Assembly (NCBI GenBank): GCA_016873115.1
Contig: VGYB01000012.1
Coordinates: forward strand, 1 to 51,110
Reading direction: 5' to 3'
Length of the DNA stretch: 51,110 nt
Origin: Planctomycetota bacterium
GTDB lineage: Bacteria > Planctomycetota > Phycisphaerae > Phycisphaerales > SM1A02
In this document: one piece after another, positions 49,592 to 51,110 of the stretch
How the letters are laid out: each line of letters starts with the position of its first letter
How positions within the stretch are numbered: position 1 is the stretch's first letter
Made by a program: the position numbers and the translations under genes
Notes under the pieces: model-generated
Told to the model about the DNA's origin: nothing
Database searches by the model: none
The model's input: only the letters and a program-made list of their open reading frames with translations

Positions 49592-49657
49592 GCAGCGAGT
49601 ATCGGACAACCGCCGCCGATTCCGACACTTTCGAGCAGGGCTTCGCTGGCTCGGTCC

Positions 49658-49717
49658 CGCGACTCAGCCCGCGGCCGGAGGGCCGCGACTCAGCCCGCGG
49701 CCGAAGGGCCGCGACTC
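49658..49717. repeat. 26-bp GC hairpin repeat, two tandem units, at the 3' end of mdh
   Basis: Two 26-bp units (49666-49691 and 49692-49717) of AGCCCGCGGCC-G(G/A)AG-GGCCGCGACTC, preceded by a partial unit (CGCGACTC). Each unit folds as CGCGGCC/GGCCGCG with a GGAG or GAAG tetraloop. The mdh stop codon (49716-49718) lies at the edge of the second unit. It may act as an mRNA 3' stabiliser or terminator for mdh. The same family is found upstream of mdh. Confidence 0.85.
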
Positions 49718-50678
49718 AGCCGAGTTCGGGTGCCAGATTCCGGACGACCCCGACGAGGTCCTTCACGTGCTGGGCGCTCTCGTTGAAGAGTTTGGTCTCG
49801 TTGGCGTTCAGTTGCAGCGGCACCACGCGCTCCATGCCATTCTTGCCGAGCACGCACGGCACGCCGACGAAGTAGCCCTTGCCCTTCTGGCCGGGGGCCA
49901 CACCGAACTCATCCTCGCAGTACGCCGCGCAGGGAATGATGCGCTTCTTGTCCTTCACGATCGCCTCGACCATCTGGATCGTGCCCGAGGCGGGCGCGTA
50001 GTAGGCGCTGGTGCCCATGAGCTGCACGATCTCGCCCCCACCGACCTTCGCGCGCTGCATGCAGGCGTCGATCTTCTCCTTGGAGAGCAGCATCTCGATC
50101 GGGATCCCGTGCACGCTGGTGAAGCGCGGCAGCGGCACCATGTCGTCGCCGTGACCGCCGAGCAGCAGCGCCTGGATGTCCTCGACGCTGCAGCCGAGTT
50201 CCATGGCGAGGAACGCGCGGAAGCGCGCCACATCCAGCGCACCGGCTTGGCCGAGGATGCGGTTGGTCGGGAAGCCGCTGGCCTTCCATGCGGTGTAGAC
50301 CATCGCGTCGAGCGGGTTGCTCACGATGATCATGATCGAGTTCGGGGCGTACTTCGCCACATTCTGGGCGACCTCCTTGACGATCTTGACGTTGGTCGCG
50401 ATCAGGTCGTCACGGCTCATGCCCGGCTTGCGCGGGATGCCCGCGGTGACCACCACGACATCACTGTCGGCGATGTCGGCGTAGTCCTTGGTCCCGGTGA
50501 TCGTGCAGTCGAAACGCTCGATCGGGGCGCACTCGTAGAGGTCGAGGGCCTTGCCCTTGGCGACACCTTCGTTGATGTCGAGGAGGACGACATTGCCCAG
50601 TTCCTTGCTTGCGGCCCAGACGGCGCAGGATGCTCCGACGTTGCCAGCACCAATCACGGAAATCTTCGCTCGACGCAT
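49716..50678 (-). CDS. mdh: malate dehydrogenase (LDH-like type)
   Basis: A 320-residue NAD-dependent dehydrogenase of the LDH/MDH family. AKISVIGAGNVGASCAVWAA is the dinucleotide fold. VTAGIPRKPGMSRDDLIATN carries the substrate-binding loop; its Arg pair (GIPRKPGMSR) indicates malate rather than lactate. IIVSNPLDAMVYTAWKASGF, GQAGALDVARFRAFLA and LLGGHGDDMVPLPRFTSVHG (catalytic His) follow. It runs in the TCA cycle. The start at 50678 (MRRAKISVIG) has GGAG about 12 nt upstream and TATGAT at 50707-50712. Flanked on both sides by hairpin repeats. Confidence 0.95.
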   Translation of the reverse strand: MRRAKISVIGAGNVGASCAVWAASKELGNVVLLDINEGVAKGKALDLYECAPIERFDCTITGTKDYADIADSDVVVVTAGIPRKPGMSRDDLIATNVKIVKEVAQNVAKYAPNSIMIIVSNPLDAMVYTAWKASGFPTNRILGQAGALDVARFRAFLAMELGCSVEDIQALLLGGHGDDMVPLPRFTSVHGIPIEMLLSKEKIDACMQRAKVGGGEIVQLMGTSAYYAPASGTIQMVEAIVKDKKRIIPCAAYCEDEFGVAPGQKGKGYFVGVPCVLGKNGMERVVPLQLNANETKLFNESAQHVKDLVGVVRNLAPELG

Positions 50679-50706: not shown

Positions 50707-50712
50707 ATCATA
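50707..50712 (-). promoter_or_regulatory. -10-like hexamer TATGAT of mdh
   Basis: TATGAT on the minus strand, 28 nt before the mdh ATG, with a GGAG ribosome-binding site between. The repeat array begins about 60 bp further upstream. Confidence 0.4.
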
Positions 50713-50773: not shown

Positions 50774-51099
50774 AGCCCGCGGCGGGAGCGCCGCGCTCGC
50801 CACCCGTCGATCCGCGATGCCTTGCTCGCGGCCGGAGGGCCGCGACTCAGCCCGCGGCGGGAGCGCCGCGCTCGCCACCCGTCGATCCGCGATGCCTTGC
50901 TCGCGGCCGGAGGGCCGCGACTCAGCCCGCGGCGGGAGCGCCGCGCTCGCCACCCGTCGATCCGCGATGCCTTGCTCGCGGCCGGAGGGCCGCGACTCAG
51001 CCCGCGGCCGAAGGGCCGCGACTCAGCCCGCGGCCGAAGGGCCGCGCTCGCCACCCGTCGATCCGCGATGCCTTGCTCGCGGCCGAAGGGCCGCGACTC
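50774..51099. repeat. 75-bp tandem hairpin-repeat array upstream of mdh
   Basis: Units of 75 bp start at 50774, 50849 and 50924 and read as identical. A 26-bp short unit follows (50999-51024), then a fourth 75-bp unit (51025-51099). Each 75-bp unit has two hairpins with 7-bp stems and four-base loops, separated by CTCGCCACCCGTCGATCCGC and GATGCCTTGC. In units 1-3, hairpin 1 is CGCGGCG-GGAG-CGCCGCG and hairpin 2 is CGCGGCC-GGAG-GGCCGCG. In unit 4 both are CGCGGCC-GAAG-GGCCGCG, so stem changes are compensated. The array ends 11 bp before the window edge. There are no unique spacers, so it is not CRISPR. Confidence 0.92.
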
Positions 51100-51110
51100 A
51101 GAATGCGCCG

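Follow-up and report, generated by a model that had tools for sequence, protein, structure and literature searches.

Tandem repeats directly behind a bacterial tRNA gene are known from the rtT region of Escherichia coli tyrT, whose units are 178 bp long. The hairpin array described here resembles rtT in its tandem arrangement behind a tRNA gene, although the rtT units are longer, unrelated in sequence and from another phylum. A gene end followed closely by several neighbouring hairpins, as in our array, is also characteristic of the hairpin-cluster intrinsic terminators, for which a U-trail is held not to be necessary (Gupta and Pal, 2021; PMC8355165); as far as the accessible text of that article goes, these clusters are mostly of two hairpins and are not described as repeats, whereas the array consists of near-identical, partly homogenised tandem copies, up to nine in number. 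The array further shares a GC-rich hairpin at a gene end, and the lack of a U-tract, with the U-less "I-shaped" terminators of mycobacteria; these are single structures, in contrast to the multiple hairpins of the array, and their function is disputed, as is U-less termination in GC-rich bacteria, for and against which the available portion of the same source cites work (PMC12288462). REP and BIME elements are likewise intergenic palindromes of 20–40 bp, sometimes in tandem, and roles in termination and RNA stability have been proposed for them in the excerpts available (PMC2817692; PMC3733652), as we propose for the array; REP sequences usually exceed 100 copies per genome, according to the same excerpts (PMC2817692). 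Unlike these elements, the array occurs at few loci, is accompanied by no Y1 transposase and has no fixed GTAG/CGTC tag. No account of homogenised tandem terminators behind bacterial tRNA genes was found among the titles and abstract openings listed by the literature searches, which is not proof of their absence in print.

The window, i.e., the whole stretch of 51,110 nt that was analyzed, is the entire contig C12 of a draft genome (G000; 2.36 Mb, 87 contigs) of a Planctomycetota bacterium. At its right end, the intergenic gap between tRNA-Ile(GAU) and mdh is occupied by an array of GC-rich hairpins; the sequence and Tandem Repeats Finder bore out the original prediction of four 75-bp units plus one of 26 bp, with bounds, in plus-strand coordinates, at 50,774–50,848, 50,849–50,923 and 50,924–50,998 (75 bp each), 50,999–51,024 (26 bp) and 51,025–51,099 (75 bp). 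The features are as follows, the names mdh and, further below, greA being assigned from Pfam matches:

51,104–51,110, minus strand: 3′ end of tRNA-Ile(GAU), truncated where the contig stops; the complete gene lies in the end region of contig C25 (L002:1425-1498).
50,774–51,099, minus strand: array between tRNA-Ile and mdh, with three 75-bp units, one 26-bp unit and one 75-bp unit.
Within the array, minus strand: H1, first hairpin of each 75-bp unit, TCGCGGCC-CTNC-GGCCGCGA.
Within the array, minus strand: H2, second hairpin of the 75-bp units, CGCGGCG-CTCC-CGCCGCG, with the H1 core in its place in the tRNA-adjacent unit.
50,999–51,024, minus strand: 26-bp single-hairpin unit, of the same type as in the array 3′ of mdh.
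50,707–50,712, minus strand: TATGAT, a -10-like box before mdh, conserved in the seven genus genomes read; a candidate promoter, found by eye.
49,716–50,678, minus strand: mdh, lactate/malate dehydrogenase family (Pfam Ldh_1_N and Ldh_1_C).
49,657–49,721, minus strand: second array, in which the 26-bp unit occurs 2.5 times; the mdh reading frame stops at the TGA of the first unit.

The first hairpin of the array, with an 8-bp GC stem and a 4-nt loop, begins 7 nt 3′ of tRNA-Ile. A known Rfam RNA was rejected, as the only matches in the window to Rfam 15 at gathering score were three tRNAs and the array matched none of its families. A coding repeat was also rejected: long frames cross the array on both strands, yet the 26-, 28-, 49- and 76-bp periods found in the genus break the frame. 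At the other side of the window, positions 1,376–1,638 hold a 124-bp tandem duplication (2.1 copies, 97% alike) that covers an ATG and the beginning of a reading frame.

The repeat exceeds what chance would give: the pattern GAGTCGCGGCCNNNNGGCCGCG had 12 matches in G000, and none when reversed. It was present in nine of 101 genomes, which are all nine of the genus (G000 included), and neither the exact pattern nor its reversed control occurred in the other genomes of the family (0/52) or of the order (0/40; 0/92 together). An exact scan of genome_contigs with GAGTCGCGGCCCTNCGGCCGCGAG retrieved nine stretches, from contigs of this genus only; this collection holds one genome per species, with 84,980 species per its description and contigs of at least 3,000 bases, and possibly does not include G000. 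To judge from the isolate names, the genus comprises lake or pond organisms. The covariance-model search of the genome and its relatives put forward in the original prediction was run with Infernal's stricter filters and a model built from 47 distinct units; hits to E 0.01 lay only 3′ of tRNA-Ile, 3′ of greA and, in G000, 3′ of mdh, each genus genome having one to three such loci. None of the 52 non-genus genomes in this search reached E 0.01 (best 0.0195), and since such genomes also yield weaker hits, those above this threshold were judged to be due to chance.

All nine genus genomes searched contain the hairpin, behind tRNA-Ile and/or greA. The array follows tRNA-Ile in the seven genomes with a readable junction (none is readable in G001 and G004) and lies directly 3′ of the greA stop codon in eight of nine, G005 having another sequence there; in G000, a gene for an FG-GAP/UnbV_ASPIC protein lies past the greA array and converges on it. 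Unit number varies by species, from one to nine head-to-tail copies per array. Elsewhere, the slot behind tRNA-Ile contains a hairpin with a T-run in G024, from another genus of the family, a long GC hairpin in G032, a short spacer only in G009, and nothing alike that was noted in G013. At the mdh end, an ordinary hairpin followed by a T-rich tail takes the position of the G000 array in four of five other genus members; G003 lacks such a hairpin. The sequence around the mdh stop is GGCTGAG in G005, G006 and G008, GGTTGAG in G007 and GGCTGAT in G003; the junction of the G000 array at the mdh stop is also GGCTGAG. Because this motif is common to three of these stops and the junction, it is a fair guess that the array was copied to mdh via the short shared homology.

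From 70 candidate hairpins, four were dropped by score and one by hand (a different hairpin on the greA side of G005), and the remaining 65 (47 distinct; five from the alternative contig C25) can be aligned gap-free, each with a stem of 8 bp and a loop of 4 nt. Paired cells amounted to 93.9%, versus 91.0% in shuffles, and double-change cells to 9, versus 2.1, with none of 500 shuffles reaching either observed value; however, the number of stem pairs with any double change, three, was reached by 66 of 500 shuffles; the covariation that the original prediction called for is thus indicated by the cells but not by the pairs. The clear double change between species replaces G-C by A-U at columns 6/21; it is seen behind greA in G006 and G008, the former also having a G-U form. 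Their greA genes are 92.9% identical and resolution of the gene tree is poor, so this could be one event or two. These comparisons support the view that pairing is kept between species, a pattern that template switching from one arm to the other could mimic without any selection. A structured RNA array, another option named in the original prediction, is conceivable on these data. The whole array folds better than all of 100 dinucleotide shuffles (z -3.30); for a lone 75-bp unit, 14 of 200 shuffles were as good (z -1.43) and the minimum-energy fold opens H1.

Within the window, the GGAG/GAAG loops match the original description, and so does the difference between GCGGCG/CGCCGC and GCGGCC/GGCCGC, which affects one hairpin of the last unit; the reading of this difference as a compensatory change is not supported. 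In the tRNA-adjacent unit, H2 holds the H1 core including its loop, and the stem change appears better explained by the H1 core having overwritten the neighbouring H2 than by compensation; genuine double changes are those behind greA in G006 and G008. Homogenisation between units, which had been proposed as the other possibility, is supported. Since G002 carries the same G-closed H2 as the window array, the two hairpin types are old. Likeness among greA units was 0.828 within and 0.767 between genomes (0/2,000 shuffles), in a test that omits G003, with one unit, and G005, with none. For tRNA-Ile units the values were 0.805 and 0.781 (247/2,000 shuffles), and 0.879 and 0.862 when only the first type was used (108/2,000), both differences not significant in a test omitting C25. 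Homogenisation across the genome was rejected, because greA and tRNA-Ile units are no more alike in the same genome (0.732, six genomes) than in different ones (0.735, 30 pairs). Homogenisation is local and partial.

As in terminators, the array places a GC-rich hairpin directly behind a gene end. Nevertheless, 64 of the 65 units have zero to two T in the eight bases behind the stem, and one has four; because this test for a U-tract failed, the array is not classed as a canonical intrinsic terminator. Half of the tRNA ends in G000 (22/44) have a hairpin of -12 kcal/mol or lower starting within 20 nt, and 19 of these 22 show at least two T in the next eight bases; only tRNA-Ile shows none. The nearest parallel lies at tRNA-Ala(TGC), which is followed by a U-tailed terminator in two to three tandem copies in six of the nine genus genomes, the exceptions being G002 (one copy), G005 (none) and G001, where the locus is cut by the contig end and terminator pieces start another contig; in G000 the tandem unit, a U-tailed terminator of 40 bp, is present in 2.7 copies (L224:7117-7222, in G000:C4). 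These units are 0.976 alike within and 0.909 between genomes (2/2,000 shuffles), and a scan for perfect stems of at least 7 found like tandem hairpins at none of 21 tRNA-Ala loci from outside the genus. Because tandem U-tailed terminators occur behind tRNA-Ala in the same genus, we conclude, from sequence comparison, that gene-end hairpins are multiplied in the genus whether or not they have a tail.

No like hairpin pairs were found in 260 kb of contigs C1 and C2, and in a sample of 344,579 bases, which includes loci picked for arrays, they were located only behind tRNA-Ile, tRNA-Ala, tRNA-Met and mdh. Those behind tRNA-Met in G000 (contig C70, L218:4731-4786) form two 28-bp units, TTGAG-stem-CTCC-stem-GAA, with the stem GTGCCGCC/GGCGGCAC; they have the layout of the greA units with a different stem, precede a separate ordinary terminator and are missing at this tRNA in the other genus members read (0/4). 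Rho is encoded in all six genus genomes searched, which makes a Rho-assisted end, with the hairpins as a barrier, conceivable.

Several explanations were weighed for the array. That all of it is an assembly artefact, as the original prediction cautioned, might be thought because contig C25 of G000 also ends inside the array, in a version with a different unit order: the ends of C12 and C25 overlap in tRNA-Ile and the first units and then disagree, by either strain variation or mis-assembly. Since the contigs that meet in the array disagree, unit number and order in G000 are uncertain; the doubt is confined to these, and the existence of the array itself is not in question, with other genus genomes carrying arrays inside contigs, including a 455-kb contig of G003, which leaves an artefact hardly credible. 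A REP/BIME-like element spread by a RAYT transposase, also suggested at the outset, is a very improbable source: the array does consist of palindromes of 20–40 bp between genes, with copies at unlinked loci and GTAG before the stem of one unit (the first behind tRNA-Ile in G006), but there are one to three loci per genome, GTAG precedes one and CGTC two of the 65 units, compared to 45 preceded by TGAG, and Y1_Tnp (PF01797) was found in none of the nine draft genomes of the genus, versus five of 14 control genomes. The latter extends to the genus the absence of a RAYT-type transposase first noted in the window; with copy number, tag and transposase all failing, this candidate was rejected.

The units could also be sites for a nucleoid protein, gyrase or a regulator of mdh, and both their regularity and the conservation of their sequence between two unlinked loci would agree with a DNA array bound by protein; we consider this improbable, as the arrays track gene 3′ ends and not the promoters of a common regulon, and as the double changes alter the sequence yet keep the pairing. 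A more serious alternative, though we still think it unlikely, is a neutral palindromic minisatellite, in which hairpin-prone DNA is multiplied by replication slippage and template switching, is tolerated at gene ends and stays complementary in its arms through the copying of one onto the other in quasi-palindrome repair. The fast change in unit number and spacer while greA remains 87–98% identical among genus members, the H2 in the window that H1 has overwritten, the GGCTGAG shared at the mdh stop and the loss of the array in G005 are all as expected from such a process. However, arm-to-arm copying would not favour the G-U pairs and single-arm changes that occur, the same two slots are filled across the genus, and the U-tailed terminator at tRNA-Ala has been multiplied too.

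The array is real, limited to the genus, and a tandemly multiplied gene-end hairpin, which probably works like a terminator or RNA-end barrier. Its hairpins would fold one by one as the RNA exits the polymerase, and end transcription and/or block 3′ exonucleases; the upstream transcript would thus gain a defined end, and the mdh promoter or the gene converging on greA would be insulated. Because the units have no U-tract, termination by them is put forward as a putative activity, and the end would be of the hairpin-cluster or Rho-assisted type. Slippage or unequal recombination would add, remove and partly homogenise copies, and the move to mdh would have been by the short shared GGCTGAG and not by a transposase. 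This gene-end reading is favoured by the position behind tRNA-Ile and greA, the hairpins in the same slot of G024 and G032, the tRNA-Ala parallel, the pairing and the likeness of greA units. Counter to it are the missing U-tract, the fold of the lone unit, the non-significant likeness of tRNA-Ile units and the shuffles for double-change pairs, as well as the tRNA-Met pair placed before a separate terminator, the lack of a greA array in G005 and of such a hairpin at mdh in G003.

We offer only tentatively, as a rather doubtful extension, that the genus ends some of its transcripts by tail-less hairpin arrays acting as clusters, with pairing under selection, and possesses a mechanism for multiplying gene-end hairpins at several unlinked loci (tRNA-Ile, tRNA-Ala and greA, and in G000 also mdh and tRNA-Met). 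If true, these loci would represent a comparable series in which terminators arise, are amplified and evolve partly in concert, with no transposase taking part. One hairpin in one to nine copies would make a natural dosage series for testing U-less termination, accompanied in the same genus by a multiplied U-tailed tRNA terminator, and the arrays illustrate how gene-end signals could multiply without a transposase.

Separately, parts of the 3′ region of tRNA-Met, its terminator among them, are found again at L227, L233, L235 and L237 (G007:C3), L229 and L234 (G003:C7), L230, L232 and L236 (G002), and L231 (G008), with the four recurrences of G007 lying within 11 kb. These parts may be either a dispersed terminator cassette or attachment-site-like repeats.
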